Of a stretch of DNA of 64,000 nucleotides, positions 9,387 through 50,200 are shown one piece after another. Below the pieces are notes generated by a model that did not search any database, was not told where the DNA came from, and saw only the letters and a list, made by a program, of their open reading frames with translations. The DNA is from Beroe ovata (Eukaryota; Ctenophora; Nuda; Beroida; Beroidae), in the NCBI GenBank assembly GCA_946803715.1, contig CAMPET010000122.1, positions 28,306-92,305 of the forward strand. Direction: 5' to 3'. The position numbers were made by a program, and so were the translations under genes. Positions within the stretch are counted from its first letter, which is position 1, and the number at the start of each line of letters is the position of its first letter.

Positions 9387-12300
9387 GCTGCGGCGCGCGC
9401 GATCATTTTGCACGTGTCACTAAGAGCAACGCGTGCCCATTCATGGCGTCATCATATGTTTTGTACAGCTCACCTCGAATCAGTGAATTGTGTTAGTCAC
9501 ACAGTCACGTGCCTCCTTATGTCACACGTGTTGGTTATACAATATACATAAACATTATCTAAGTTACGTTCAAACTATTTTTTATTGATTTGAAGTTTTT
9601 TTTTAAATTAAGCAATTTAAACTCGAAGTCATCGTCAGCACATTTATTCTTATCACTATCAGAGACTCGGAATTATTGATTGATTTACCCACTATAATAT
9701 TCATATCAATATCATCATGTTTCCCATACGAACCATGGTGCATCGAGGTTTTTCGTCATTTACCCCAGTCACACAGATCATTGAAAAACAAATTATTGGT
9801 TCTGATATCTTTAATAGCAGGTTTCTCATGTCCATTATAGCATTATGTATGGCCATCAAACATTCATGATATTGAGCTATTTAGTTCACTCAGTTAATGC
9901 GTACAAGTACAAAGCTTTTGCGAGAAAATATTATATCTGGTCGGGGCTGAAAGTTCGAAATATTTAAGTTAAATCAATTTTGCATGAAGGAGCGGTCGAC
10001 CGACACATCTTCAGGAGGTGAAACCGTAGCCACTAGTTTTGGAGAGGCAAAATGAAGCTTTCTAATTGTACCAGGGCTATAATTATATAAGTTCTGCTGA
10101 CAAAATAGCACAGTGGTCGGAAAGGACACGCCCCAAATGCGCAACTTATGAATGAAGAATGCTTTGTCGAAATTTAGCTATTGAAAATTCACGTTAATGT
10201 TGAATATCGATTGTTCCTCAAGGATTCAGATGATTTGGCGAAAAGTCATGAAACTGCTATTATTGTGAGCAACAGCTATGCACTTTGCAGCTATGCACTT
10301 TGCAGTATGGAGGCTATGATTCATATGCGTTCAAAAGAGTTTTGTCTTAGAGTTAATCATCTTAATCTAGTATCAGTTCGCTAGGTATATGAAGGATTAA
10401 TCTATTACCGCTATTCAATGGTCTAGGTCACTTTGTTGTGCTTAGTGCTCGCTTCATGATTGTCAGCTTGGATTTATCCTGGGCATAATTGTGGAATTAT
10501 GATCCGCTCACGATAATGGATACTTATTCGTGGATTGTTACATGAAGTTCATGATGAACACAACATTATCACCCAACACAGAGTATTTTGAACGATCGAT
10601 TTAATGGCGCAACGGCGACTTTCATCCGATTAATTTGGAGCTGCCCTCCTCGGGATATTGAAACCATGTCTTTGATTTGATATCCGATGTTGCATTACAG
10701 TTTTGAGTAGATGAAGATTATAATAACAATGGTTTGAAGTTTCAGTGACATGTTGTTTTTTATTTCGATTTTTGTCATACCATATTTTCAACTTCTCTTA
10801 TTTTGAATCTCAATACCTTCCTCTTATTTTGTCACAATGTTCGAAATCATGCTCACCCCAATCCCAGATGGCCTGTGACCGCGCCCATATTATCGATATA
10901 TCTGAATTTCTCTATTTTTGATTTGGCACTGGGGAATATCATGGCTGAAACATTTTGACATCACTGTTAATCATAAAATTATCTGTACATGATCACGGCC
11001 ATGTTCCCAAAAATCTCCGTTACCGGTTACGTGGATCAGGATACCCTGCTTGCCTATCGATGACTACCCTACCGACACTGTGTGATGTCCCCGGCACCCT
11101 TACCAGAGTTAAGATTAAGCGCGCTGAACGAGTTGCTGCATGAACAATACCCCCAAGTTGGCGTGACTGCGTGGATCGCTCCACCTCAAGGGGGTATACT
11201 AACGTGTCGTCACGTTATCAACACCCCATTGTGCTGCTTCTTGTATTTAAATGCTTGCGCGCCCCCACAGCTCCATCACATGCGATTGTTTTGAAGCTCG
11301 CTAAAGTTCATGTCTCCAGCTTCCCTGACCGCTCATATTTGAATTTCACAATGTTTCCCCACCCCCAATTCCCACTCCCAATCAATCACCTAGTCTGATT
11401 GATAATGATTCTAAATATGGTCTCTGCAACAAAGTAAATGTAATGAAACTGAATTTTGACGACTGAATCTGGATTTTTAACAACTTGACATCGGTAATAT
11501 TTCCGGAATACTGCTCTAGTTATTTCATTTCAGGTTGAAAACGGAGTTGTATTCCGAAAATATTTCCGATGACAAGTTGTTATTAAAAAATCCAGATTCA
11601 GTTATTAAAATTCAGTTTCATTATTTTGTCGCAGAGACCACATTCAAAATCAATCAGTATCACTATCAGTTTATGCACAGTTTATGCACAGCAACTAATA
11701 AATAATGATCCGATCATTCAGTTAATCAATCAATCACCATGACAACACAAGGAAATGGCTACAAGGTCAAGAGCGTCAACACTCAGCATGATGCATTAAC
11801 TTTAGCCCCTTGGCCTTTATCATCATAAAGGGCCAATTTGCAGTGCATATGCGGTCAGCCTCTTTACCGTCGTTACTCGTTCTTTTTTACAAGCCACGCG
11901 CATCATGAAACTGCAGCTTGAGTACCCTCATAAGCTTCATGACCATATTCATCCGGCTTCATCCAAATGTGATCACTAAAAAGGTGTTATCGTGCTAATA
12001 AAGTATCTTAAAGTAGCTGCCAACTCAGTATCAAGAATTCAATTTGACAAAGGAACACTTAATATAATTGTTTACTTGAATAATTGAAGATTGAATCAGT
12101 CTGATTCTATTTCAACATTTCATTTTTAAAGATCCCCTTTTCTGTATTGATATTTTTTCATAAAATTGCTCCACCCTGACTAAAAATGGCATAAAATATA
12201 ACCACTCCTAGTTCAGTATCTATGTAATAAACCTACCGGAGATATAATTGCACATGGAGATTGGAGATCTGCCTCAAAGAGTGGCATAATAACTACGCTA

Positions 12301-14559: not shown

Positions 14560-15521
14560 ATATAATCAACAAACTAATTGCAGTAATTGCAGAGGTTTGT
14601 GGCGCTTTTGTCCAACGATTCTTTTGTCCATTTATGTGTTGAAATTTCGCAACAATTCCATTAATGTAACGCGTTGCTGTGGGGCAAAAAATCTACTGCA
14701 TTGGCCACGACCACGTCCATTGTCCATTAGTCATAGAACTCTACTTCTGCAGAAATACAGATTCAGTAACACGAACACTTTTGCAGGTAACACCGTCACA
14801 GCCCTTACAAATAGCACTCGAGTTGTCTGGGGGAAGAATGGTCAATGGTCTGCAGTGCCCACTACTTCTCAAACTAGTCAGTAGTCTAGGCAGATATTCC
14901 AAGGACTGATATTGCAAAACATGATTGACCTTTTCATAGTGTATATTATATGAGTTTATTTATATTGCGAAAATGTTCCGTCATAGACATGAGTTATGGG
15001 TGCAACTGTTTTTCATGTACATATTCTGGTGTTGCACAGACGTTTCCTCCTCAATTCTGCACGGAAAGAAATATGAAAAGTGATCTTTATTAATCCACTT
15101 CAGTTGTCAATGCCAAACTGGTGATTCAATTGTTTGTCTGGTACCTCTAGTGAACCGAAAAGATCTCTGAGTGACTGGGTCTGTCCAAACTACAGACATC
15201 GGATTTAACGTAGCAAAATTATGCGTGATATGTTGTCAAGTCTACCATAAAACATGCATATACTAAATGGTCATATATCGATCTGCACTACTGGCCATTT
15301 TATTCCCACGCCGCGCAACGCGCGTCACAATTGCGCCGATGGAACAGTGTTTGTGTTTTCGCGCGTCACGCAATAAGTATGTAAATATTGCGAAAACAGT
15401 GGCAAATTGGGAAAAAGTCCGTTATTGATGAGAATTATTTCGGATTCCCAACAAAACATATCCAGGAAAGACTTGAGAACTACATACAAACATAGTATCT
15501 AACTTAACCCTTCACCGAAAT
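14560..15521. other. intergenic, no gene seen
   Basis: Convergent spacer between the peptide gene and the last serpin exon. It holds a CpG-rich patch near 15308-15365 (CGCGCAACGCGCGTC). Overlapping ORFs at 14498-14909 are shadows with no recognisable content. Confidence 0.5.
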
Positions 15522-15527
15522 TTTATT
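15522..15527 (-). promoter_or_regulatory. poly(A) signal AATAAA for the distal serpin exon
   Basis: AATAAA on the minus strand, 134 bases downstream of the stop codon of the most distal alternative serpin exon. Confidence 0.55.
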
Positions 15528-15660
15528 TAAGGATGGATGCAACTGAAATCAACAATATGAAACTGAATAAACTACAAACAATACGCGGTCCCGTAACTGC
15601 ACAGGTAACGACGCTAGGAACTGTTAACAGCTACGAACCAGCTGAAATGAGCATGAAAAT

Positions 15661-15890
15661 TCAAATCTTATTCAATCGTCCTAGAAAAAGCAAAATTCCA
15701 TCAGGTGAGCTGGTAATCACGAACACACACGGCTGATCAACATGGAACTGTATGGGCTTCACTTTCGATATCCTAGCGCAACGTTTCTTCATAACCATGC
15801 CTGTTGCAGCTGCAGCCTTCGTCCCCTTCTCATCTACAGTTATGACGGCCTTGTGGACGGCATCGGAAACATATAGGTCGGCAGGGATTC
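15661..15890 (-). CDS. serpin alternative C-terminal exon D (basic P1)
   Basis: The most canonical of the four. After the acceptor ATTCTCAG it encodes LYVSDAVHKAVITVDEKGTK, then an Ala-rich hinge (AAAAT), a loop MVMKKRCARISK, and the C-terminal strands IQFHVDQPCVF and LLFLGR. Counting from the hinge Glu as P17 puts Arg at P1, preceded by Lys-Lys, and Cys at P1'. That predicts a trypsin-like or proprotein-convertase-like target. It ends 134 bases before an AATAAA. Confidence 0.9.
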
Positions 15891-18800
15891 CTGAGAATTT
15901 GACTTATCTGACGTGATAGTGGCTGTTGTCTAGTGATATAAAACTGAGAAGTGTATTTGAGGCTCACACAGAGTTTCAGAGTAAGAGAGGTTAATGTGAC
16001 AGGGAACCAGAGTGTGCTACAAAAACACAAAAAGGAAGAAGACGGCCGATAAGTGACATAATAGAATCGCACGAAATGAAGTGTTTTGTAGCCTGTAAAT
16101 GAAAATTTTTAATTGCAGAAGATAAAGTTGAGCCGCATAGCATTCTGAACACCTTGTCCAATACAGCTAGATCACTTTGCAATCTTTATAAATCGGCCAG
16201 TGAACGTCTGAAGTCCCCCACAATAGATAAGGAAAACAAATACTTGATCGACATGAAACATGATCGGTACGGGTTTTTTCCTGTATCGAGAGCAAGAAGG
16301 CGCCATCATGAATGCGGTGGCAGCTGCCGCCTCAGTGCCACGTTCGTCCACCCCTATCACGGCTTTGTGGACGGCTGCAGAAACACTGATATCTCTTGAA
16401 AAACCTGTGGTGATGCTGGGTGGTCGAGAAGGAACGTGCGTAATGCGTATTTGAAGGACATAAACTTGGTATTTGGCAATAATGATGCACATACAATGAT
16501 GCAGAGCCCGTCAATTGATGATATAGCATAGGTAAAATTATACTATCGACTGAATAAAAATGTAATAAGGTAGCATTACATAAGGCAGAAAGAAGAAGAT
16601 CGCTCAAGAAATCAAATTGTGTTAGGCTTGCAAAGCCGTCCATTGAATATCTGATTATCATTACAGAAAATCAAGAGAGAGCACGGTTGATCGACAAAGA
16701 AATCAATTGGAGGGGGTTCATTGTCCATGGGCATCATACACCCTAGTCTCATCACGACGGCCGTGGCGGCAGCTGCCTCAGTGCCAGATTCATTAACGGA
16801 AATCACAGCTTTGTGGACGGCTTGGGATACGACCACATCACGTACTCCTGTGGTGTGATTTTGCTCAAGTGTGATTTTGCTTCGAGCGTGTGGGGTGATA
16901 TTGCTCACGGTGTGATTTAGCTTCGAGTGTGTGTGTGTGAGATCTGACACTTAACCACGCGGCCAAATAGGTGAGGCAAAATTGTCTCTGTGGTTAAGTG
17001 GAGCAGCACAAGATATCAGAGGTTAGGCTGACAAAGAGTTATGCTTATTCAATGATAAATAGCATGTTCTATTGTTCTGAAGTTGTGTGCGTATTGTAAG
17101 AAGCATTTCTACAATTTTACATAGGTAGTATGTCAGCTAACTTAATCTAGCAAAGCTGATAAATCTCTGGTAGATACTATAAAGTATAAACTGTAGTCTT
17201 TTACGGTTTTTGTAGGCAACAGCCAAGAAATTGAATGAAATATCATTATACGCACAGCTCAAGGAATGATATATGGGCTGGGCAATCAAACTGATTGTGA
17301 TACATTGATACAAAATCATGTTATTATCATAATTTACAAGAATTTCATAATTTATAATACTTATCGGAATTAATAATCTGTGAGAAGCATGCACCAAATT
17401 CATCTCTGTATGTCCGATCCAATCTATTGAAAAGTTTTCAATGCCCAATTAAATACAGCCCCGGTAACCTATTCACATATTATTTAGCACTGACTGTGAT
17501 ATCATAATGTGTGGGAGCTAGGAGAGCCACCTCAGAGGCAAGGGTTGAGGCAACGGCCGGCGAACAGTATGAGCCGCTTGTAATACAGCACGACGGCGAA
17601 CGGCTCATCTGCCACGAAGTAAAGATCTGATTTCAGCGTGTTCCTCCTAAAGCAGTTGTTAGAGTTATGGACAGAACGCAACGAAACGGACTTCAGATTT
17701 GCAAACTTCTTGACGGGCGCCTCAATGTCTAGCTTCGCCGCGTGGAGGGAGTCACTGGCTGCCAGATGGTCACGCGACAACTCGGGAATGAAGAGTCCTG
17801 AAATGCATGGTATACGTGGACACTAATTATTGGAGGATCGCACTGTTGAGGGGCTGGTCAGCTGCTTTCAGGAGGGAAGGTACAGGCTACCAGGATCAAC
17901 GATCCAAATCAAATTCGTGCAAATTATCGGGGAAACAAATCATGTGGTTAAAATCAAAACACCGTGCCCTTTGCGGAGAACGGGCAAATAACCTTTTACC
18001 TTACTTCTAGTACAAGTATTAGTCGCGGAGGACACTAGGTTTGCTAACAGCTTCCTATCCGGAATGAAGAATCACAAAACTGTCTTACTCCGAGAATTCG
18101 GTCTTCAGACCTAAGTATTCTATGGATAAATCGTGATGGAAAATCGTGATAATATTTTGATATCCATGCAAATTGCAAATCACTGAGAAGTGGACGTGTT
18201 CGAATCACCGATATAAGCCATGAAATACCATTTCATATCGAAAACCCTGCACCAGGCACACCCATATCTCTCTTCTCTCAGACCAAAGGGACCTTGACTC
18301 CTCACAGTTCTTACAACAACTCGACAAATCAGGACTGCAGCAATAACCATAGTAGTTGCATTTAACTATGTCTATAATTATAGACATAAATTAAACTCAC
18401 AGTCTTTTGTCACGAGTTTAATAATTTATCAAACTCGTGATAAAATTCGATTGCTGGTTTATAAAGCCGCACACCAAGGATCCCCATCGGTTTTGAAACG
18501 CTTACACGGCACTCACACACTGTGTGTGAGTGCAACAAGTGCTCGGGTGAATCACCAAATTCATTTGATGGTAAGTTTATCAGGGTGGCAGCCAAATCGA
18601 TCGAAAAGAAGATGTAAAATAAGGCATATTTGATGCATGAAATGCCAAGGGGAATTAATGGGATTAATGGTGCATTGCAAAAGTTCATAAAGAGACAGAG
18701 AAGGTAAGCACATGCAAAGAACCATACAAAGCACAAAGGAAAGCATACAACTCTTACCGTTAATCCCAGAGAAGTCCGCAACCCCCGCTTCAAACATCTC

Positions 18801-19709
18801 TCCAGCGCCCATTTTACAGAGCAGTTCCTTCAAATCATACTTCTCCTCAAAATTGAACTTGGGGAGTTTGAGGTTGACTTCACGCGACGTGACAGCTTTG
18901 TACCACTCATCAGTTACTCCCGGCTTCATGATTTGTTCCTCCACTTGGCGTAGCTGGTAGGGGACTTGTGGCAGTATGACCATCATGCTGATGTCTTTAC
19001 ATCCCTGGTAAGGCAGGAGCACATACCGTGCAACACTATTCTCTCCGTACATCAGGTGCTTGTTACTATAGTAACGCATCATCTGAACACGTGCAGTCTC
19101 CCTGGCATTTAGGTGGAAATCTTCCTCTTGTGACGTATCGAACGGATCCACCCACAGACCTTTGAAATAGATGGCATTGCACAGGATTAACCTGGTCAAC
19201 TCATCCACCATGGATGGATCTATCAGTTGCTTGATCATATCCTCAGTAGACTCAGCAACCCAACTGTTAACCTCATCAGCAACCTGATTTGCATCACTGA
19301 ACGAGTTGCTGATGATATCAGCATGGAGATCCTGTTGCAATACTCTCTTATACTCTGGTAAAACCTGGAAATTGTCCTTGATCCAGACTCTGTTTGCCAC
19401 GGCTAATTTTGTACAATCATCCTCTTTCTTGTTCAGAGATTTGATGAGACGGTGGTAGAATGACAGGATATCGGTATCGGCGATGCCCAGAATACCCATC
19501 ACTTCACTCAGCTGCCGCTTGGTCGTCCCTTTAGCCCCCTGGTGCACCATTTGTAGACACGCAGCAATGCTGAGAGGAGAGTAGAATATGTTGTCCTCAG
19601 ACTCGGATAACAGACCGTATAGCCTGGCGCTGAAGTCCCCAATAGATTCCGAGCATCGTTTCAGGGACAGGCTCTTGTCACTGTTTACTAACTGCCCTTG
19701 GGAGCGCAT
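15661..19709 (-). CDS. serpin with four alternative reactive-loop exons
   Basis: Serine/cysteine protease inhibitor of the serpin fold. One body exon (18758-19709, 317 codons plus one base) carries helix A to the end of the region before the hinge, including SPLSIAACLQMVHQGAKGTT, FNEVNSW-like DEVNSWVAEST and ILCNAIYFKGLW. It ends in phase 1 after DFSGING. Four downstream exons (17532-17797, 16612-16847, 16172-16404, 15661-15890) all begin in phase 1 behind their own CAG acceptor and end in their own stop, giving isoforms of about 393-405 residues, the normal serpin size. No second body exon exists between them, so mutually exclusive terminal exons are the simplest reading. There is no signal peptide at this start, which with the P1' Cys suggests an intracellular clade-B-like inhibitor. 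The ATG at 19709 lies four bases behind a pyrimidine-rich CAG. Confidence 0.9.
16108..16113 (-). promoter_or_regulatory. possible poly(A) signal ATTAAA for serpin exon C
   Basis: Variant hexamer on the minus strand about 60 bases past the stop of the alternative exon ending at 16172. Its weakness relative to AATAAA is noted. Use is inferred. Confidence 0.35.
16172..16404 (-). CDS. serpin alternative C-terminal exon C
   Basis: Acceptor CATCACCACAG. Encodes ISVSAAVHKAVIGVDERGTE, the hinge AAAATA, loop FMMAPSCSRYRKK, then IMFHVDQVFVFLI and a short end. Hinge counting puts Ser at P1 and Cys at P1', preceded by Pro at P2. The hinge is intact, so an inhibitory serpin is expected, but with a target different from exon D. 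Confidence 0.88.
16612..16847 (-). CDS. serpin alternative C-terminal exon B
   Basis: Acceptor AATCACACCACAG. Encodes VVVSQAVHKAVISVNESGTE, the hinge AAAATA, loop VVMRLGCMMPMDNEPPP, then IDFFVDQPCSLLIF. Hinge counting gives Gly at P1 and Cys at P1', with Arg at P3 and Leu at P2. The last residues (NGRLCKP) match the usual GR..P serpin end only loosely. Confidence 0.88.
17532..17797 (-). CDS. serpin alternative C-terminal exon A (degenerate hinge)
   Basis: Acceptor ATGCATTTCAG in the same phase 1. Encodes DHLAASDSLHAAKLDIEAPV, where the usual hinge should be, followed by KKFANLKSVSLRS in place of GTEAAAATA. The C-terminal strands are well kept: DLYFVADEPFAVVLYY and LILFAGRCLNP. Loss of Gly at P15, small residues at P14 and the Ala run is known to block loop insertion in serpins, so this isoform is probably non-inhibitory. 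It is the exon closest to the body exon. Confidence 0.8.
18758..19709 (-). CDS. serpin constant body exon
   Basis: Single exon supplying about 80 percent of the serpin fold and shared by all isoforms. The donor is GGTAAGAG at 18757-18750. The open frame continues upstream of the ATG through a 41-bp minisatellite and an assembly gap, but that translated repeat is not credible protein. The start MRSQGQLVNSDKS leads straight into helix A (SIGDFSARLYGLL). Confidence 0.88.
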
Positions 19710-19736
19710 CCTACTGAGAGAGTGAAGGGTGGTGAG

Positions 19737-20137
19737 GATTGGTGAGGAATGGTGGGAGCATGTAACTTGTGGAAGCAGGGTGGTGAGGAGTGGTGAGAGC
19801 ATGTGACTTGTGGAAGCAGGGTGATGAGGAATGGTGAGAGCATGTGACTTGTGNNNNNNNNNNNNNNNNNNNNNNNNNNNNNNNNNNNNNNNNNNNNNNN
19901 NNNNNNNNNNNNNNNNNNNNNNNNNNNNNNNNNNNNNNNNNNNNNNNNNNNNNNNNNNNNNNNNNNNNNNNNNNNNNNNNNNNNNNNNNNNNNNNNNNNN
20001 NNNNNNNNNNNNNNNNNNNNNNNNNNNNNNNNNNNAGCAGGGTGGTGAGGAGTGGTGGGAGCATGTGACTTGTGGAAGCAGAGTGGTGAGGAATGGTGGG
20101 AGCATGTGACTTGTGGAAGCAGGGTGGTGAGGAGTGA
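19737..20137. repeat. 41-bp minisatellite spanning an assembly gap
   Basis: Unit beginning AGCATGTGACTTGTGGAAGC and continuing with GGTGGTGAGG-type sequence. About 182 Ns (19854-20035) lie inside the array, so copy number is unknown. Its pyrimidine-rich minus strand runs up to the acceptor-like motif before the serpin start. Confidence 0.9.
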
Positions 20138-28393: not shown

Positions 28394-29523
28394 TCTCTGT
28401 TAGAGTTGGTCAATGGTGAGTGTATCAGCAAATATGTACTTATGGTCCAAATATTTTATCATGGTAACTGAATTCTTTTTGTAATGAATACTGAATAGTC
28501 AGTATACTACTATACTTAATACTAGTATTTACTGTTGATAAGTCAATCAAGCAATGGTCATTTAGACTAGAAACTTGACTGATTGTTAAACTTGTCTGAT
28601 TATTAAATCTGAATATATGTATTCTACCATCTCTACCACAAAGAATTATCTAATAGAATAAAATGGAATATAAGATTATAACATAACCACTTAACAACAC
28701 AAAGAATTGCAATTGAATATATAATTTATATTCGAATAGTTCCTGTCGAGAATTTCATTGCGCGTGCGCAATTGCAATTGCAAATTATTTTCAATGTTAG
28801 CATTTGTGTGGCGATACTAAGCCAGTAAATCCAGCTAGAGCTAACGCGGAACGCAGAACGGTGAGCGTCAGTAAAATTATAAATAAGTTGCGGCCGCGGC
28901 GCGCGCTCAATGAGATCAGAAATTCTCGACAAAAATTTTTGACAAGAATTGTCCACACAAATTCGCTTGTTAGATATTGTTACCGCGCGCGAGAAATAGA
29001 GGTCAGATAAAATCTGACAAAAATTCGCGACATGGGCTATCATCGATTCATCGCGATCGACAGCCAAGTTTGCATCAAGTTGCTTCAGCAATGAAAAGGC
29101 AAAATTTTGTATTGCCAGGCAGGCAAAGCTAAATATAATTAATTAATTAATTCTGAGCTTTTTAATTATTTACACTGAAAATATTTTCCTCACTCCTCAG
29201 CACTATACAATGCACTGCTAGACTGCTGATGTAAGCCTGTTGATTTTGAACAAACAAATTACCCAATAATTCCACTCTTATGCTGTATCATTGTTTCATT
29301 TTGCCATATATCTTGAATCCCTGTTGCTTTGGTTTTATCTAGATTCTAACTAGATTTCACATTTGATGCGTCTAAAGGGACTCCAGGTAGTTCAAAGCAT
29401 ATTGGCATAAGAACAGATCCTCTTTTATTTCACTTTCTTCAAAACAATAGCATTCAAAACAATAGCATTATTATTTATTTATTTATAAGGAATAATTAAA
29501 ATTGATACCATGTTTCTATAGGT
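28394..29523. other. divergent intergenic region with CpG-rich repeat copy
   Basis: Separates the MANSC-like gene (-) from EXOSC7 (+). Bases 28860-29060 contain GCGGCCGCGGCGCGCGC and GCGCGCGAGAAATAGAGGTC, matching the palindromic repeat family seen at 36.7 and 56.5 kb. The 121-codon minus ORF here falls in that repeat and is not called. Confidence 0.5.
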
Positions 29524-30372
29524 ATGGCATCAATCAGGTTATCAACTGCAGAGCAGAAGTATATTATAGACAGTGCAGAGTCTGACTTCAGGCCTGATGG
29601 AAGATCATGTGAAGACTATAGACAAATTGAAATAGAAACCAGGAACTTACCTAACACCAATGGTTCTTCTAGATGTAAAATTGGTAAAACTGAGGTACTT
29701 GTAGGTGTTAAAGCTGAGGTTGTTGATGTTGACTTACATCTACCAACTCAAGGCAAGCTCAACATATCGGTAGATTGTTCTGCAACTGCTTCTCCCCAAT
29801 TCGCTGGAAGGGGCAGTGAGGCAGTAGAACAAGAAGTTTTATCAGTTCTTAACCTCCTATATTCATCTACAGATACTCTGAATCTCGAGGATTTATGTAT
29901 TGTGAAAGGGGAATCATGTTGGCTCCTCAATATTGATGTTCTGTACATTCAGTGTGGGGGAAACATTTTTGATGCAGCATCTATTGCACTCAAAGCAGCA
30001 CTATACAGTACTACAATGCCTAATGTCAATGTTTCTGGGGAAGGTATTGAAATGGAATTAGAGATATCTGACGACCCGTACCACGTGTGGACACTGAACA
30101 CTACCATGTGTCCAATATGCATAACATTGTATCAGATTGGAGAATCATTTGCTGCTGATGTTACAGAAGAAGAAGAGGAATGCAGCACAGGCTATGTTCA
30201 TGTGGGAGTGTTACCCTCAGGTGAGGTGTCGGCCATGGAGAAGTCAGGTGCCGGCAATATGGAACCAGATGCCCTACTTGAGATGATTGAAGTTGCCGTG
30301 AAAATAGGAGAAGATCTCCATAAGCAGTTAGATAAGAATCTCATCACAGAAAGTACTACAGCGACATTATAA
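29524..30372 (+). CDS. EXOSC7: exosome complex subunit RRP42 / EXOSC7
   Basis: Non-catalytic RNase PH-like subunit of the hexameric RNA exosome ring, acting in nuclear and cytoplasmic 3'-5' RNA decay. Intronless, 282 residues (human protein 291). The N-terminus has the RNase PH opening EQKYIIDSAESDFRPDGRSC, then EIETRNLPNTNGSSRCKIG and ILVGVKAEV-like TEVLVGVKAEV. ADDP-type SDDPYHVWTLN and CPICITLYQIG follow, as in this paralogue. The middle has LCIVKGESCWLLNIDVLYIQ, the typical strand pattern, and FDAASIALKAAL. The start is the first ATG of the frame, two bases behind TTTCTATAG. Dymeclin follows on the same strand after 350 bases. The absence of introns contrasts with most neighbours. Confidence 0.93.
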   Translation: MASIRLSTAEQKYIIDSAESDFRPDGRSCEDYRQIEIETRNLPNTNGSSRCKIGKTEVLVGVKAEVVDVDLHLPTQGKLNISVDCSATASPQFAGRGSEAVEQEVLSVLNLLYSSTDTLNLEDLCIVKGESCWLLNIDVLYIQCGGNIFDAASIALKAALYSTTMPNVNVSGEGIEMELEISDDPYHVWTLNTTMCPICITLYQIGESFAADVTEEEEECSTGYVHVGVLPSGEVSAMEKSGAGNMEPDALLEMIEVAVKIGEDLHKQLDKNLITESTTATL

Positions 30373-38277: not shown

Positions 38278-41200
38278 ATGTCAAATGAGTTAGACAAATA
38301 TGATGATGTAGCACAGTGGGATTTAAGTCTTCCAGATGGGAAACATGCAGTGAGGTACCACTTCACATGTTGTGATGAACATTTTTTCAGATGTTTCCTG
38401 ACCTTATCATCACAAGTTGTTGTCCTCCTAAAATGTACAGGGTGTACCAAAAAAGTGGACAAAAGCAGAAGCTCATAACTATCATAAGCCTGATAGGAAT
38501 TGGCCAATGGCCCAAAGCTTTCCCCATCAAAATTTCCTAGTTAAAAATGTATGAGTTATCAGCAAAACTAGCTGTTCAGTTTTTGCACATTCATGACTCA
38601 GCCTATGACTGAGTCATGAATCAATTCACAATCAATTTTGCAGCATCTCTAACACTTTCTTGACAACAGAACAGCGTCCTTCACTTTCATTCATCAGCAT
38701 CACAGGATCTGGGCCACTAAAATGAATGCAGACTTCAACATAACAATCCTCAACTAATCGAGAGCAAATCCTGAAAATTTCATCAATGAGCCTTAACAGG
38801 ATATATGCAAGCTCCAAACTAATTTCCACTTATTTTTTGACACACACTGTATAACCCAGTTTGCTCCAGCCTTGTATTATCTCAGATCATCCCTATGTTC
38901 CAATACATTTTCAGGTTTCAGCATGGAACAACCAGTGGGAGGAGGGTCATCATAGTTGATGGGAAGGAGATTAGGAACACAGGATGGCAGTTCAAATTAG
39001 TTGGCAGGGAATCGTTTATGATCGGGAATTACCGGGCTTGTATTATCATCGAGGCAAATGGCTTGAAGTAGGTCAATAACTGTTGAAAGTTTTTGTGTTG
39101 CATTATGAAATTAAATGATTTATACCAAGGCAGCATAATCTGAAATCCTCCCTTTCAGCTACACCTATACTTTGGAGGTAGATGGGAAAAGTCTGAAGCG
39201 ATTCGTGGAGAATCGGCAGAAAGCTTGCAGAACTTGGACTCCCCATGTTAATGGCTCTCCCCATCGTGTGGTATTAGGTGAGTGACACTAACATGTGCAG
39301 TAGGGAATGAAAATATAATTACAGTTCCATTCCAGTGGCTATCCGCTATATTAAACCATGGCCCAAAGGGTTTTTGTGCTGTGACGTAAGCAATCGATAT
39401 CGAAAATATTCCTCGCAGCTCACCGCATGCAGCATAAGATAAGAATGCAGTAGGTACATAATATTACCTAAATTTTCCTCGATCATTTTAAATCGAAATA
39501 TTGACGACCCGAGGAGCGGAGAGGTTTCAATATAAATGTTGTCATGGTGATCGCATGACTAAGGTCATTATCTTAACTTGATTCGATCACACTTACCATT
39601 ATAATTCGTTCATTAGTTGTTTTCGGGCGGTTTGAGTTTCATTTTATTCAGTAGGAGCGTGTTTCCTCATCACCACAACTTTGAACTTGATTATTGTTTG
39701 ATACCAGTGTCTGTGTACAAAGACTGTCCACTACAGTGTGTTTGCATGATACTGGTTCCTTCAACTCCTCTTAATACTTTTGCAATTGTTTAATCGCGTT
39801 TGTTAAGCAAACTCTGGTAGAAGCATGCAGAACATGCATTAAGCGTGTGCACTAAGTTGCAATTCTCTGACTTCTTGACGTTTAGAAAGTTCACGTTGAG
39901 AAATTTGGTTTACAATTGCTTCGAAAATACGGGTACATCGTCTGTCTCTCAAACGAACCTGATGGCTGATGATTTGGAACTCGATTTGGTTGTTCACTTG
40001 CTGGATGCTGGCGGGTCAAAAGGTCTCCTGGAACTCTTCAACCACGTATACGGCATGAACAACCATTACTTCCGTCTCGTTGCATCGGTGGGCGGTCCTG
40101 CTGCGTTCTTGGAGGAGTTCTCTTCATTTCTGTCCCTGAACAAAGACAACAAAGTGTCCCTGTCGGTCCCGTTTGTGGTGTGCCGGGACGCGGGTTGTAG
40201 CTGCGGGGATTTCCACGTGTGCTCGCACTGGCCGCGTCGTGTGGGCGCTTGTGTCACGTGTCGCGGGAACCCTGTCAAAAACTCAGACAACGCGGCTATC
40301 TACAAGAAGTACCCTCTACTAGGTAAACTGAATCCTATCCTCTTGAAACGTTTACTGAAACGAACAAAGTTCATTATTAGACCTGAAACTCCGATTCTGT
40401 TTGAGAAATGTGCCCCTGATTTACTGCGATTTCCCCAAGTTTGCCAGTATTACAACAGCCAGGGCGGGTGTGGCAGACCTTGCCTTTTCTTCCACTTGTG
40501 TCGGAGATTTGTGGAGGGCTGTTGTACGAATGAGAAGACGTGTGGACTATCCCATGATCTCAAATCTAAACACAACAAGATGATCGTTGAGCGATGTGGT
40601 GGAATTCCTCTAGACGATAGCTCGCTTCTCCAGGTTATCACATCACAGACCTCAGTGACAACACTAGCCCTGGATATGTTGGACCATGACACCATGATAC
40701 ACGACCACGAGACAGAGATATGTGTGTGGAATTTGGTAGGAGAGTGTGGCAAGGGGTCAGAGTGCCCATTCCACCACACCAATCTGCCGTTCTGGTGGCA
40801 GTACCAAACTGATGGTGGCGGCTGGGATAGCTGGGATAGACACAACATACTGGTTCTGGAGAAAGCGTACTGTAACCCCGTCATACGGACAGTTGAGATC
40901 AAGATCAATGATATCATAGCTATCATTGACTTCCCCACAATGACCATGCTCGATGGAGAATATAGGATACGGAGGATGTCCACTGGGGCTGTCCATGGAG
41001 ATCGACATCTCGGTTCCCTGGCGACAGCGTACCACTGGCACTGGGAGGAAGTGGACAACGTATGGCACGAGTTTCCGTCGTGTGTGACGCAGGGAAAACA
41101 CGCCCCACAACTTGAACTCCCGAGTCACGTGATAGAAACATCGTATCTCCATGGTGATGAGAAGCTCCATTTCAAGATATCGGACTCCGAGTTCAAGCTT

Positions 41201-43176
41201 CTATTCGGCGGAATGCAGATGAAGGAGGAGGACTGTCGGAATATACGGAAAATCTGCCGCCGACCAATCCACCGGACAGTACCGCGATGTGCGAATTTGA
41301 TCTGCGGAGTTGATGCACCTGATCACGAATACCATACTGCGGTCACTGACGCCACGCCTGACCAATGGGAGTTCGTGACGAGCCAGTTGAAACAGGGAAC
41401 AAAACCGAGCGAAATCAAGGTACTGTCGTCTAACTTGACAGACGCACAGTTTGGAAAGCGGGACACGGGAAAGCGAGATAAGATGTATCTATTCCATCCT
41501 GTCGTTGGTGATAACCCCACTGCTATAGCACAACACGGTCTTCTTCTTACCGACACACCAGCTAGCATGAAGAAATACGGAGCTGGGCTTCACCTCAGTG
41601 TCGATGAGACCTACTCCCTCCACTTCTCTTCCAAACCGACTCTGCTCCTGTGCGAAGTGATTATCGGTGCGTACAGCCGGGGAAAACCAGACGACGTGGC
41701 ACCACCGATATCGGAATTCGGCGAGCAGTTTCACTGTTGTGTAAATAATGTGGACAATCCCGATGTCTTTGTGCTGTATGATGTGATGTGTGTCAAGCCC
41801 AAGTACTGGATTGCGTTTTGAGAATATTGGATTGTGTTTTTTGGGAGAAGGTATTCGAACAGTGAGACACCCGATATGCAGTTCATTATTATTATCATTC
41901 GTTTCAGGATTTTGTGGCAGGATTTCTTTCAGTCTTTTCTACCTCAATCGTTTTGTACATCAAATAAATCAATTGTATTCAGTATTTTCATCAAATTGGT
42001 TATGATCGAGGATTGATTTTCACTCCAGTTACGAATTATGGATAGATTAGCCTATGTAGGTCTCATCAGCATTTGAATTCACAATCAGCATAATGACATA
42101 GCGCACGTAGGGGGCTGCATGTAATAAAGTACACTGCTATCCTTATCATGACGACATATTGACAATGTGTCATTGACAATGCTTGTATACATATATTGAT
42201 TTGCGTAATATAGCTGGTGTGTGTGTGTGTGTGTGTACTGTGTAGGATCTGTGTAAATCATTTGTTCGCAAGATTTGCCATACCGCGTGCATTGCTCCTT
42301 AGTCCTTGTTGTTTATTTGGCATGCGGACCGCTTGAATTTAGAATTATAGTCTGAAACGATAATTGTAGGACTTGCTTCTCGTTAACCCCAGATAAGCAA
42401 CAGGATGTAACATCTTGCGTAGTGAATACGTTAGTAAACGAGTATGTGACAGCTTAGACATCATTCCACAACATGTTGATTGTATTATATGAAGATGATG
42501 GTATGCACATATCAATCATATGCGCCTGATATCCGAAAAGTCTTGTCGCTTAACATCAAACTTGGCTGCATTCACCAAAACCTACATTTGGCAATATATG
42601 AACTGTGCCACTTGTTTGGTACGCGCGAGAAGAAGCTTCGGACAAAGTTCAAGTTTCAGCAGCTAGTGTTGCTGCGCGCGACGGTGTCGATCTTGTCGTG
42701 GAAAATACGTGCGCGCTACGCGGTGCAATTTATTACGACCTAGATTAAAAAAATCGAGATATTTGCATATCAGTGTCATATGTAATCCGACCTTTCATCA
42801 AGAATGATGAGTTATATTCACAGAGAAGGACAGCCTAAACGTTTGGTTGGACGGACAGAAATTAGACGTTGTGGTAAGTATTCCCAATACCCTGAACTCT
42901 CGGGTCAGATGCGTAATTAGAGTCGCCCTCATACTATTGCAGTTGTATATCAGCGGGTTATTTTCACGGGTGATTCACAACAGATTCCCATTATAGAGTG
43001 AGTTTGCGGACAACGGTACAGAAACGTGTTTCCTGATTGATGGCCACCAAGCCGTGATACGGGCCGTGACATCGGGAAAACGGCGAGAGGGCATCATCTA
43101 CAGCCTGTTTCTGGGTGATATGCAGATACCAGATGCCACAGAGAGTAGCATGGGATCTGGAAGTAGCTCTGCATGA
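38278..43176 (+). CDS. FAIM: Fas apoptotic inhibitory molecule
   Basis: Cytosolic beta-sandwich protein linked in mammals to protection from death-receptor apoptosis and from protein aggregation. Exons 38278-38354, 38915-39067, 39159-39277, 42824-42873 and 42997-43176 give 192 residues (human short form 179). Matches include VAQWDLSLPDGKHAV, FQHGTTSGRRVIIVDGKEI, FKLVGRESFMIGN, YTYTLEVDGKSLKRF, EKDSLNVWLDGQKLD and DNGTETCFLIDGHQAVIRAV..GKRREGIIYSL. The start follows TTTCTCTCAG by eight bases. The 3.5-kb third intron contains an entire PARP-family gene on the same strand, and the first intron holds a short inverted-repeat transposon. An AATAAA lies about 150 bases past the stop. Confidence 0.93.
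38436..38851. mobile_element. short transposon (MITE-like) with mariner-like inverted ends
   Basis: The left end TACAGGGTGTACCAAAAAAG and the right end, whose complement reads TACAGTGTGTGTCAAAAAAT, are imperfect terminal inverted repeats flanked by TA. CAGGGTGT..CAAAA ends are common in Tc1/mariner-type elements. The 416-base interior has no recognisable transposase. It lies in the first FAIM intron. Confidence 0.6.
39962..41821 (+). CDS. CCCH-WWE-PARP protein (ZAP/PARP12-like), nested in a FAIM intron
   Basis: Intronless ORF of 619 residues from the ATG at MADDLELDLVVHLL; the open frame extends 39 codons upstream without another ATG. In vertebrates ZAP (PARP13) and PARP12 bind RNA and restrict viruses; PARP12 is a mono-ADP-ribosyltransferase. 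The N-terminus resembles the ZAP winged-helix. CCCH-type fingers start at about residue 161 (VCQYYNSQGGCGRPCLFFHLC, then CCTNEKTCGLSHD), and another is CVWNLVGECGKGSECPFHH. WWE features begin near residue 278 (LPFWWQYQ) and 355 (WHWEEVDNVWHEF). The PARP fold covers about 470-619 with YLFHPV, GAGLHLSVDETYSLHF and KPKYWIAF. The His of the H-Y motif is kept but the usual Gly-Thr after it is Pro-Val. AATAAA lies at 41963. Activity is uncertain. Confidence 0.85.
   Translation: MADDLELDLVVHLLDAGGSKGLLELFNHVYGMNNHYFRLVASVGGPAAFLEEFSSFLSLNKDNKVSLSVPFVVCRDAGCSCGDFHVCSHWPRRVGACVTCRGNPVKNSDNAAIYKKYPLLGKLNPILLKRLLKRTKFIIRPETPILFEKCAPDLLRFPQVCQYYNSQGGCGRPCLFFHLCRRFVEGCCTNEKTCGLSHDLKSKHNKMIVERCGGIPLDDSSLLQVITSQTSVTTLALDMLDHDTMIHDHETEICVWNLVGECGKGSECPFHHTNLPFWWQYQTDGGGWDSWDRHNILVLEKAYCNPVIRTVEIKINDIIAIIDFPTMTMLDGEYRIRRMSTGAVHGDRHLGSLATAYHWHWEEVDNVWHEFPSCVTQGKHAPQLELPSHVIETSYLHGDEKLHFKISDSEFKLLFGGMQMKEEDCRNIRKICRRPIHRTVPRCANLICGVDAPDHEYHTAVTDATPDQWEFVTSQLKQGTKPSEIKVLSSNLTDAQFGKRDTGKRDKMYLFHPVVGDNPTAIAQHGLLLTDTPASMKKYGAGLHLSVDETYSLHFSSKPTLLLCEVIIGAYSRGKPDDVAPPISEFGEQFHCCVNNVDNPDVFVLYDVMCVKPKYWIAF
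41963..41968 (+). promoter_or_regulatory. poly(A) signal of the PARP gene
   Basis: AATAAA 142 bases past the PARP stop, still inside the FAIM intron, so the nested gene has its own 3' end. Confidence 0.6.
42216..42236. repeat. (GT)n microsatellite
   Basis: Short GT run in the large FAIM intron. Confidence 0.8.
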
Positions 43177-44292: not shown

Positions 44293-47200
44293 TCACATGG
44301 TGCCCATGTAGCCACCGTTGTACAGCTGTTGTGGCATGCTTTGAGGCGGCATCTGCTGCTGGCCGGGGACACCGTACATGTTGGGCATGGGGCTGTAGCC
44401 TGGACCACTGGTAATCATGAGCTGTTCACCTGGGAACACGTCTTTGGGTGAGGGATTGGGACTAATATCTATAACAGTGATAGAATACAATCAGGACAAA
44501 GCTATTCAACAGCACGTCACTTATCATCAGTTTTCAGTGAAAACTTTTCACAGCCAGACACAATATCACAATTATATTGGAGGTGCCAGACACCGAAATT
44601 GTAATGGCAAAAATGATAGACATTAGATTTATACATGACATGCTCAACAGTCGGACTGGACATCACACTGTACTGGTATTATAGTGCAGAGGTATGGGCT
44701 ATGGGCATTGTGCAAAGACTATATCAGTGGGCGAGAGTGTATTACAATCCGGCTTCCACTTACTTATGTCCACGGTCTAAATATAGCCAATAGCAAGCTG
44801 GGGCTCTGATATCATGGGATGGAGTGAATGACCGTGATCAATGGGATTGTTAACGAATTGTATGGACCAATGCACCTCATACAAAGCAAAGTTGTTTCTA
44901 TGATTCTCAATGACAACTATAAAACCCGCTGGCACTAACCTAGGACGAGCGGTTGCTGGTTGTTAGTTTCAGCCTCCTTAGCTCTGGTTTCGTCAGAAAC
45001 CTCTAGTTTATCAACCTGAGCATGGATAGTTGAGCCGATGTCGTGTTTTCGTGCGATTGAACTGAGATTATGTTCATCTGTGCTCCAATTTCCTAACATC
45101 CTATGACCAACACTGTGAATCCACCTACCTTCTGTGTGTACTCTCTGACACTCTGAATGAGATACGGCATGGCAAAGTCCATGATGTTGTGTCGCCACGC
45201 CAACTCCAAGATCACATCCGGTCGCAACATGTCGTACATCACGAACGTTCCGGCAGCAAAACTCTCGTAATTCTCATTTTCCAGGAACCACGACATCAGA
45301 TCCTCCGATATTTCCGTATTCCGGGACTCTGCCGCGTACTCCATCGCGTCCTTGAAGAGGAGGTCCTTCTTGCACAGTTCCACAGCCTGCTTCCACCGGT
45401 TGTTCATTTTGAAGAGGTACGCAGCAATACGTCGAAATTCTATCAACTCGTGTTTCTCCATGCGTTGAGCAAGGGCGATGTTGTCAAAGTTGTTGAAATC
45501 GTCGATTGAGCTACGGAGACTATCATAATCCTCGTTTTCGATGTAGATGTTGTTGAGTGCCTCGTTGATAACCTTGTTGTTGTGAGACTGAACACTCTTG
45601 ACATAAGGTAGGACAAGTGATAGCTGTCCAACCTGTAGATTAGTGAATTGTGAGTCAGGGTCTTGGTATTTGTGTCACAAGTGACCTCGGCGTTCGAATT
45701 TTCTGTTAGCGTCCTCCGTTTATGCTTGCTCATAATTTGTAACCAGATCCTAACCTAAGTTTCGTGGCACGCAGCTCAATTTCTACACAGCAATGTTTGG
45801 AAAGAAGGGTACTAATTTCCAACTTCTTAGATAAGTTAGTCACGTGTCCCATATCACGTGTGCTTACCTTTTGGAAGTATCCCACAGCGCGTGTGTGGTC
45901 AAGACGAGGGGTGAGGACCAATAGGAGATCGTTAAGCAGCATTGGCTTGAACTCCAAGTAGAAAGATAAGGCTGAAATGTGACACTGTGAGTAAGGCGGC
46001 TATTTGATTTCCAGATAAGAGAAATTCATGTTACACACTTCTAACACTCCAGTTTTTCACATAAACTGGATACTACACATACACATAAACACCCATTTCA
46101 AACAGCGGTTTCGCAGAATTCCGACATCAAAAACACACAACTACCCACCTTTGTAGTAAAGCTCGATGTTAGCCACTTTGGTGATAATATCCTTGAAGAG
46201 GGCTTCTTTCCAGCACGGCGTGGGGTGGCTCATCATGGTCTGTATGGCGTTGTCATACTCCTCATACTTATCGTAGAGGAAGACTAGCTCTGCCCAGAGA
46301 TGTGCTTGTTCAGCTGCTCTCAGTACCTGAGTGTGGTGAGAGGGTGAGTGTAGTGAGGGGTGAGTGTGGTGAGGGGTGAGAGGGTGAGTGTGGTGATAGG
46401 TGAGAGGGTGAGTGTGGTGAGGGGTGAGAGGGTGATTGTGGTGAGAGGGTGAGATGGTGAGTGTGGTGAGGGGTAAGTGCTAGGGATGAGTGCTAGGGAG
46501 GAGAGGTCATTAGAGAACTGGTGAAGTTACTGTTACTGATATTATAGTCTGTTTTCACTACAAGTAATGTCAGTCCAATTTTTCTGCGTGGTCTGTGAAA
46601 AGCCGGAAACCCACCTTAGGAATATTGACACGTGACCAGAACAGCTCCAGATGCTCTCTCATCTTGGGTGCATTGTACTTGGAGTACAATATAGCCAGCT
46701 CCGTGAACATGCCCATGTGGGCTCTCTCCAGCCCTAGAGCTGCCTCGAGAAGCTGGATCAACTCCTGGAAGAAGCCACGGCTCTGGTAGAAGTTGATCAG
46801 TTCCTCTAGTTCATCAGCGTGGACCACAATGTGGAGACCACACATCTGTGCCATCCTGAACTCGCCTGCTTCCACACACGCGAAACACACCTGAGGGAGA
46901 GAAAGAGAGGGGTTGTCACGTGATGACACAGCTAGTGACGTGATGGTACAGTAAGTGACGTCATAAGACACAGTTGGAAACGTCATAAGACTGGTAAAGT
47001 CAAGAGACCAACCTCTTTCCATGTTTTAGTGCTGTTCGCTTTGCGTGCCCCATCAACAGCTGCCTGATACTCGCCCAGATGAACTAGAGTAGAGGAGAGA
47101 CGGGCATAGTTGCTCACGTTGTTATACAGGATCCTTGCCGGCTCGTACAATTTCTCCTCGTAACATCTGTCTCCCACTTGCTGTATCTGAGCTATGTTCG

Positions 47201-50200
47201 GCGAGGAAATGAACTCTTCCAAATCGGCGAGACGGTTCACTTTGGCGTACGCAAATACGAGTTCTGTCTCGATGATAGCTTCGCGAGCTTTCTTACGAGC
47301 CATCTGGAGGTAGCGGACCATATCCTCATACCCATCTGAGATTTGGGCGATGAATCAGATTGAATTCAAAACGGAAGTAACATACAGATGAGGGAATCAG
47401 AGTGGTGTATTTTTGAATCAATGCTATTAACAAACCGTTGGCTCTTGCAGCTTCAATAACATCAAGATAAGCAGAGGGGTCGTCTGCCTTTATGAAGGAG
47501 TCAATAGCGTCCTTCACTGCCCCGGAATTTAGTTGAGCTCTTGCCAGTTCCGACCACACGGTGGGATCATTGCATCTCTCTGCGAACTCGTATGCCCGGT
47601 CCAGGTTCTTGACATGTTCAATGAGAACTTGTACAGCAGACGTGTTGACATCGAACTTCTTGAAAATGGCGAATGCCTCTTCGAACAGCTGGTTAGTGAT
47701 AGCGATGTTGGCAATGTCAGGGGCGTCGTAGTTGTCAAGTCTGGTAATGTACTCCATGACTCGGGTGGGATCTGCCTTGACAGCTGTCAAGATGAGCAGG
47801 TTCTGCAGGTTCCTGTGGTCGCTGAACACAGAGTTCTCCAGGACGATCTTCTCCAGGAGCTCTATCAGCTCGTTGGGCAGGTCGGCCGCCATGAACGCTC
47901 GCACCGTGGTCGATACATCATCGGCATCTTGGGTCTCACTGAGAGCAGTCTGTACAACCTGGGGGGGATGTGTTACTACATGCTGGAATAGACGGACAGT
48001 ATTCTCACTATTCGGTAATGTGGGAAGCAATGGGATGGAATTTGGTGTAATCTAGTATTTGGCGTACCTGGTCAATGAGTGGGCGTCTGAAAGTGTTCTC
48101 TGGATCCAGGACATGTTCCCAAAGTGCGGCATCTCTCCTCCTCACGAGATGCCGAGCAGCGTATTTGAAGAGGGAGTTCTCGTTACACACCCGGATCAAA
48201 TCCATGTCACATGAGCCCCTCTCATACGATACACACGCCAGGTGTGGGTCTCTCTTCTCGCAGTACTTCCCGATAACCTCACTCTCGTAGTACTGATTCT
48301 CACGCAGGAATCGCTCGGGGTTGTTGTTCGAGTCGATGTAGATCTTAGCGAGGGCGTTGTGGGTTGCGGGCTCGTTGATCCCCTCGTGGACTCGTCCCTC
48401 CAACCACGGCATGAGAAGCTTGAGTCGGTTCCTCTTCTCCACTTCCTCCACCAGCTCGTCAGTAGAGAATTGCCCCCGCACCGTGAGGATGAGATTCTTT
48501 ACGATATCCTCACCACAGTCGACATCCAGCAGTCCGCCAACCACGGCCGGTAGTCGAGATGGGTTTACCTGGGTAATATTCATCATAGAACACACACATG
48601 TAACATAAATGTGGATTTTTCAAAGACGATGGGAAAGATAATTATGAATTTATAGTCGAACCTTCTGGACGTAAATCTCGATGTATTTCTGCAGGTTATT
48701 CTTGTAGAGATACATCACCAAATCGTGTACAAAGTTGAACCTGATAAAATTACACTCAATTCCGGTGTTCCGGCATGACACTCATGTGGAATGTTTTCGA
48801 AATACATTCGAAATAATTTCGAAATACATTCGGAAATGGTTAAGCCCTATCAAGTAATTCACCTGTCACACACGATGATAAGTGGCAACTGATCCGCCAA
48901 CTTGGCCTCCTTCAGGAAGTTCTTGACCCTCTCAGGATCGTAACAACTGCTCTCCCTACAGATACGCTCCACCTCCTTGATCTGGCCGGTCTTACACGCC
49001 GCCTGGATGTATCTGAAGTGCACCTCCGCCTCCTGGCTGAAGTTCACAATGCTCCCCAGGAAGTAGAACAGACCCTCGAAACTCTTGAAACTCTCGAAAA
49101 GCTCGATAAGCTTGGTCGTGCCGAGTTGCTCGTGATACTTTCCAGCAACTTGTACACAGATCTGTAGATTCTGTCGGAGATTGGCCGTCAACATGGCTTT
49201 CAAACACTCCAAACTATCGTCCACACTGAGAGATCCGAAATACTCGACAAGCCACTCCTGCTTCAGAAGATGGGTGTGCACAATGGCTCTCTTGATGTCG
49301 AATATGTCAGTGTAGTGTTCCAGAGCTCGTTGTAGGAGCTGGGCTTGCTCACACAGCTGAGCGACGTGTGCTCTGTCATAGTGGGTGAATAGCTGGTTCC
49401 CGAGAATAGCATCAGCCACCTGGCGGGGATAAATGGGGAATTAGATCAGTGTACACTATGATATACATTTCTACACTGTAAAAATCGCAATGTACAGTGT
49501 ACACGGGGACTGGGTGATGAAGATGAATACTGCACTGAGTAATATCCAGGGTTTTACAGTTTACACTCATTAAGTGATGTGTGATTCGAACTCCCCAAAT
49601 TCCTATGTGTACAATACAGCTGTGTTGTTAAAATAATCTGCTGTTAACTACATTTAAAACCTCCATTTAAACTACATTTTAAACCTACATTTATCACACA
49701 GCTGCTACTATACATTGATCACACAGCTGCTACTATACATTGATCATGCAGTACACCTGTATGGAGTGTACAATACAGTGACAGTTGACACCTGTAACAG
49801 CTACAGGTTTCAATCTGTTCACTATTGAGCATGAGGTGAGGACTAAACGTACATCAATATCCCTCTATGATCAGAAGCTAGGCATGGTACTGTATCCTTT
49901 GTACTGTATACAGTTTATCCAGTTTACAAACTCTGTACATGGTGGTACAGTGTACCAAATATAGCGTGTATAAACGACCAAGCCCACCAATCATCCAATT
50001 TCATAATCGCCTCCTTTGCAATCGCCTATGTACACGCGGAAGTACCAAATCAATGGACATCTCTGAGTACACTTAGGAGAAACCATAATGAAATTGCATA
50101 ATTTGAACGGACGATGATACCAATTTGGAATAATGAGGCAACTGATTGTGACACGAAGGTAGATAATCGGATCATAATGATGGAGTGTGAGAGAAAAGGT

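Follow-up and report, generated by a model that had tools for sequence, protein, structure and literature searches.

Can a single serpin gene exchange its reactive loop by joining one body exon to any of four terminal coding exons, and does each of these endings produce a protease inhibitor? This question is raised by the window, by which we mean the whole 64,000-nucleotide stretch of DNA that was analysed. One serpin body exon is followed there by four in-phase loop exons, here called A, B, C and D, and the present analysis confirms this observation. The gene most likely belongs to a ctenophore and encodes a serpin in which no signal peptide is visible, and its last coding exon is most likely one of the four. 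We consider it quite probable that a single gene with a choice of four acceptors generates three inhibitors of different specificity (B, C and D) together with a probably non-inhibitory form (A).

Architecture of the locus

The body exon matches the Pfam Serpin profile with 262 bits over positions 2-299, and its start codon aligns with the starts of its homologues (MTSQGQF in P0004). Exons A, B, C and D lie 3' of the body exon on the same strand, each in phase 1 with a CAG/G acceptor and its own stop (Table 1). The intervals measure 960 nt from the body to A, 684 nt from A to B, 207 nt from B to C and 281 nt from C to D, and the four loop exons are contained in one gap-free stretch. Exons D, B and C score 64.1, 49.7 and 45.9 bits, respectively, over approximately positions 302-370 of the same profile, and exon A reaches 16.7 bits over positions 301-370, below the 27-bit cut-off. 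Because the body covers positions 2-299 and the loop exons approximately positions 301-370, each body-loop pair makes one complete serpin. Joined to exon D, the body gives hits to 196 PDB sequences at E <= 0.001, the strongest at 6.9e-62, and the body and loop together cover the whole Serpin domain, which places the product in the serpin superfamily. The layout of one body and several in-phase, protein-ending exons is that of serpin genes with alternative reactive-loop exons. The preliminary description, which reported a 952-nt phase-1 body exon and four phase-1 exons with CAG acceptors and their own stops, was accurate in coordinates, strand, phases, acceptors and stops.

Table 1. Coordinates of the body exon, the loop exons and the associated signals in the window
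Feature	Position	Strand	Description
Possible AG acceptor right before the ATG	19714..19715	minus	TTCACTCTCTCAG; noted by eye
Serpin body exon	18758..19709	minus	952 nt; 317 codons and one further base (phase 1); start codon ATG at 19709, final exon base 18758, donor AACG/gtaagag
5' splice site GTAAGAG, common to all isoforms	18751..18757	minus	corresponds to the residue at which homologues leave the serpin sequence or enter a loop
Loop exon A	17532..17797	minus	266 nt; encodes a serpin C-terminus that lacks the inhibitory hinge; own TGA; acceptor CATTTCAG
Loop exon B	16612..16847	minus	236 nt; hinge GTEAAAAT; P2-P1-P1' L-G-C; own TGA; acceptor CACCACAG
Loop exon C	16172..16404	minus	233 nt; hinge GTEAAAAT; P2-P1-P1' P-S-C; own TGA; acceptor CACCACAG
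ATTAAA, possible polyadenylation signal past the stop of C	16108..16113	minus	motif scan only
Loop exon D	15661..15890	minus	230 nt; hinge GTKAAAAT; P2-P1-P1' K-R-C; own TGA; acceptor ATTCTCAG
AATAAA, candidate shared polyadenylation signal past D, first after the body donor	15522..15527	minus	motif scan only

A loop profile built without the window's own exons ranked the same four exons as the top stretches of the window, with 111.2 bits for D, 103.7 for B, 86.5 for C and 18.5 for A, followed by a next stretch at 11.7 bits. In six frames, the loop profiles revealed no fifth loop exon in the window. A segment at 40546-40424 was considered as an extra loop exon and rejected as a chance match, given that it scores only 13.6 and 11.7 bits and lies antisense to a long open frame.

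The N-terminus of the body aligns with its homologues and appears polar by eye, with no visible signal peptide; the products are thus probably intracellular, unless an upstream 5' exon adds one. The possible AG acceptor close to the start codon suggests an upstream 5' UTR exon. A 41-base tandem repeat (19740-20133) lies directly upstream of the body exon and flanks an N run (19854-20035) on both sides, and the 5' end of the gene may therefore be misassembled. A different 41-base tandem repeat (2.1 copies, 16849-16933) ends at the acceptor of exon B.

Elsewhere in the window, open frames resemble by eye a CCCH zinc-finger protein whose C-terminal domain is PARP-like (39821-41821, plus strand, 666 residues), exons of a clathrin heavy chain (several long frames, 45093-49440, minus strand) and an RNase PH-type exosome subunit (29506-30372, plus strand, 288 residues). 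The window has a mean G+C content of about 42.5%. A search against Rfam yielded no match in the window, and no relative emerged when viral contigs were scanned for genomic neighbours from other species.

How would one ending be selected? In the proposed mechanism, the body donor at 18758 would join the acceptor of A, B, C or D, with the four acceptors in competition. The first loop exon joined would set the C-terminus, and any later loop exons retained in the message would serve as 3' UTR only. Because every loop exon carries its own stop, no special exclusion machinery is needed. RNA pairing that forces an exclusive choice was considered and set aside on the same ground, and a scan of 15500-18780 for inverted repeats (seed 10, minimum 14, a setting that would miss weaker pairing) returned three, including one palindrome and one local hairpin, with no docking site common to the loop exons. 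From the stop of A to that of C, the motif scan found neither AATAAA nor ATTAAA, although weaker TATAAA motifs are present there; A and B thus lack either motif ahead of the next loop exon. Their messages may accordingly extend across the later loop exons, which would then be 3' UTR, in which case the choice would be one of alternative 3' splice sites and not of separate terminal exons. Products ending in B, C or D would act as suicide inhibitors that present different bait residues on one scaffold and would thereby address different target proteases. We infer that this species uses each of the four junctions, that the specificities differ and that the A form is non-inhibitory.

Homologues and the conserved body-loop intron

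Among the best 120 of 1362 matches to the body, the highest-ranking protein with a species name comes from the ctenophore Bolinopsis microptera (P0004, leukocyte elastase inhibitor-like isoform X3), and its body is 67.5% identical to that of the window. Sixteen body homologues stand apart in the same set, with a drop from 318 bits for P0016 to 247 bits for P0017. A ctenophore origin is likely, judging from this similarity, for the 15 homologues besides P0004 and for the window itself, which supports the earlier suggestion that the species might be non-bilaterian.

The homologues locate the intron. Directly after the glycine at the junction, 8 of the 16 leave the serpin sequence with Glu or Lys, the expected translation of a GTGAG or GTAAR donor, 6 enter a loop and the remaining 2 end elsewhere. 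Such breaks and joins at one residue indicate that the intron is conserved and is spliced in the relatives. P0001 and P0008 do not differ in the 181 residues that lead to the junction, after which one continues with a donor-like EF and the other with a D-like loop; the loop of P0008 is the nearest row to exon D (68% identical). A body (P0009) and a loop (P0139) carry the same longest contig figure, 878,851 bases; provided that this shared length denotes a single contig, body and loop seem to lie together in that genome too. Taken together, the anatomy, the conserved intron and the spliced homologues strongly support one body with alternative loop exons, as originally claimed.

Among the matches listed (best 120 of 1362 for the body and best 120 of 4537 for the loop), no species has two transcripts that combine one body with different loops. 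The name of the Bolinopsis protein implies isoforms X1 and X2, and these are not among the best 120 of 1362. P0004 shares the body-loop junction residue with the window gene but differs in its loop, which has an acidic tail and a Tyr at P1 and no clear counterpart here (best match exon B, 48%). The acidic loop class as a whole (P0004, P0124, P0129, P0134, P0137 and P0154) has no clear counterpart in this genome. P0123, P0126 and P0141 are three short frames that are near-identical outside the bait and differ within it; they are perhaps a fast-changing loop array of another species.

Loop diversity, exon A and alternative explanations

The loops were compared in an alignment of 23 rows, comprising 13 of 22 fetched proteins, six homologue tails and the four window exons; the other 9 fetched proteins were dropped by eye as not ctenophore-like or as near copies of P0154. 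Exon A was omitted for column identities (22 rows), and two outgroup tails were added for the tree (25 rows). Bait positions were counted with the conserved Glu as P17. Across the 22 loops, the mean pairwise identity is 0.86 in the hinge (P17-P8), a value that is partly built in because the rows were picked by eye for likeness, 0.33 in the bait (P7-P5') and 0.41 in the following columns. Nine residues occur at P1 (G, S, R, Y, C, Q, T, F and L), and 20 of the 22 loops have Cys at P1'. Intracellular clade B-like serpins lack a signal peptide, and several clade B members have Cys at P1'; the products may belong to this group. The tree is poorly resolved, with 4 of 22 inner branches well supported and C and D unplaced. 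It identifies P0122 as the sister of exon B (support 97/90), and the grouping of this pair with P0139 (94/93) is just short of the support mark.

What does exon A encode? The inhibitory small-residue hinge (P15-P8, GT[EK]AAAAT) was found in three of the four exons, B, C and D. At this site exon A reads DIEAPVKKFANLKSVSL; the hinge position itself is EAPVKKFANLKSVSL, and the residues in place of the inhibitory hinge are EAPVKKFANLKS. The flanking strands LHAAKLDIE, FVADEPFAVVLYY and LILFAGR are retained. Insertion is not expected of a hinge that contains Val-Lys-Lys-Phe. The product of exon A, in which both hinge and bait would be replaced, is therefore predicted to be non-inhibitory and most likely unable to trap proteases. 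The preliminary description had placed a hinge in all four exons and had counted at least four inhibitors; the former applies to B, C and D and fails for A, and the latter is not supported.

Exon A does not look like debris. Its relative P0241, the sole match reported among about 5.8 billion proteins, shows 79% identity across 87 columns that include a single gap, and the similarity opens precisely at the residue with which the predicted exon begins. The 47 residues that precede it in P0241 match neither the body nor the intron, and their best hit in the window (E 0.43, at 11677) falls outside the locus. A reading of P0241 as one longer uninterrupted exon was rejected for want of a convincing match of these residues in the window or the body, and they were read as intron. 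The similarity from the first predicted residue, together with the unmatched stretch before it, thus looks like a conserved exon behind an intron. These observations bear on the alternative that only B, C and D are alternative loops and that A makes no protein, being either in decay or a poison ending through which the gene yields less product. Such a role would fit the missing hinge, the longest end branch of the loop tree (5.85) and the low Pfam score of exon A. However, conservation that begins exactly at the splice boundary, and the retention of serpin positions 301-370, phase and acceptor, make this alternative unlikely.

Two further explanations question the use or the unity of the array. 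A single loop exon might be in regular use, with the other copies as leftovers of tandem exon duplication, and the usual polyadenylation motif is indeed found near the stop only for C and D. Against this, each of the four exons keeps an open frame and intact splice sites, at a nucleotide identity of about 56-58% among B, C and D, and both B and A have relatives elsewhere. Pairs of B, C and D show pN values of 0.32-0.35 and pS values of 0.67-0.84, with synonymous change near or past saturation. In neutral simulations from D, in which indels were not modelled, 87 and 69 of 2000 copies were still open when all of the change was placed on one copy, and 263 and 251 of 2000 when half of it was. We regard the single-loop explanation as very unlikely. 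Alternatively, the loop exons might belong to further bodies that are missing or collapsed in the draft assembly, so that several genes are present. The assembly contains N gaps, including that at 19854-20035, and may be incomplete; moreover, relatives may have more than one body, given that the 16 homologues include several different ones. Yet only one body precedes the four loop exons, which share a stretch free of gaps, and among the best candidates scored in the assembly there was no further body of the family, leaving several genes, each with a hidden body of its own, highly improbable.

The assembly searches behind this comparison yield lower bounds because only the best candidates were scored. 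In the 77.8 Mb assembly, the body found itself, a 29% identical relative on contig C25 and one match at E 0.28. Exon D recovered D, C and B, followed by four distant matches on C25, C101 and C21 (seven in total), and exon A found itself alone. A genome search with Pfam Serpin listed at least 13 places and missed exon A. One such body and four such loops were thus found, and the other serpin loci on C25, C101 and C21 have one loop match per gene and no array in six-frame loop profiles. The serpin on C25 (L001, 1429-2724) occupies one 431-residue open frame with hydrophobic stretches at both ends by eye, and is perhaps secreted or membrane-anchored.

Relationship to known loop-swapping serpins

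We return to the reading of one gene with four alternative endings. The junction lies before strand s5A, 29 (B) or 30 (C and D) codons upstream of the hinge end. Because the boundary precedes s5A, the hinge is swapped together with the bait, and a hinge-less form such as A becomes possible within the same gene.

Intron positions were counted from E342 along the alpha-1-antitrypsin sequence, and were anchored on the E342K conserpin alignment. By this numbering, the window junction falls at 323a for loops of the length of B and one codon off for C and D. According to PMC2746811 and PMC2556349, intron 323a is present in vertebrate group V3 (neuroserpin and its kin), but lancelet, sea urchin and sea anemone lack it in their orthologues of neuroserpin, and the match may therefore be due to chance. 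The window gene also differs from group V3 as described there in that introns 167a, 230a, 290b, 352a and 380a are missing; its only junction is that near 323a, and the body and loop exons are otherwise unbroken.

The swapping strategy itself is already known. PMC4006314 describes loop-swapping serpins in insects, nematodes and urochordates, among them Drosophila Spn42Da (Spn4), in which one serpin core is followed by four alternative loop exons, as in the window gene. In Spn42Da, by the same account, the sequence varies from G335, after a conserved hinge (N324-T334), whereas the window gene carries the hinge inside each swapped exon. Serpins of the clade of Pteromalus PpSerpin-1 and Manduca serpin-1 resemble the window gene in their swapped C-terminal exons, phase-1 junction and G/GTAAGT-like donor (PMC10513286). 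The same paper reports C-terminal alternative splicing in 192 of 731 genes of this insect clade, with the boundary one base past the hinge end in 161 of the 192; the window junction lies 29-30 codons earlier. The difference in boundary favours an independent origin and suggests that loop swapping arose separately from that of insects.

Is the array old or convergent, as the preliminary description supposed? Each alternative stands in part: the supported sister of exon B in another genome and the 79% relative of exon A indicate that the array is not new, and the boundary differs from that of insects. A search limited to open-access papers listed no title on ctenophore serpins and nothing for serpins in Mnemiopsis. 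We tentatively suggest, at somewhat less than even confidence, that ctenophores invented loop swapping independently and early, with the boundary before s5A, that A is a conserved non-inhibitory form and that the intron may be the ancient 323a. If this is true, placing the hinge in the cassette would let one gene switch both its target and its character as inhibitor or non-inhibitor, and the 323a intron would be an ancient animal intron that vertebrate group V3 has retained without the cassettes. A conserved hinge-less cassette would make the switch between inhibitor and non-inhibitor testable within one gene.
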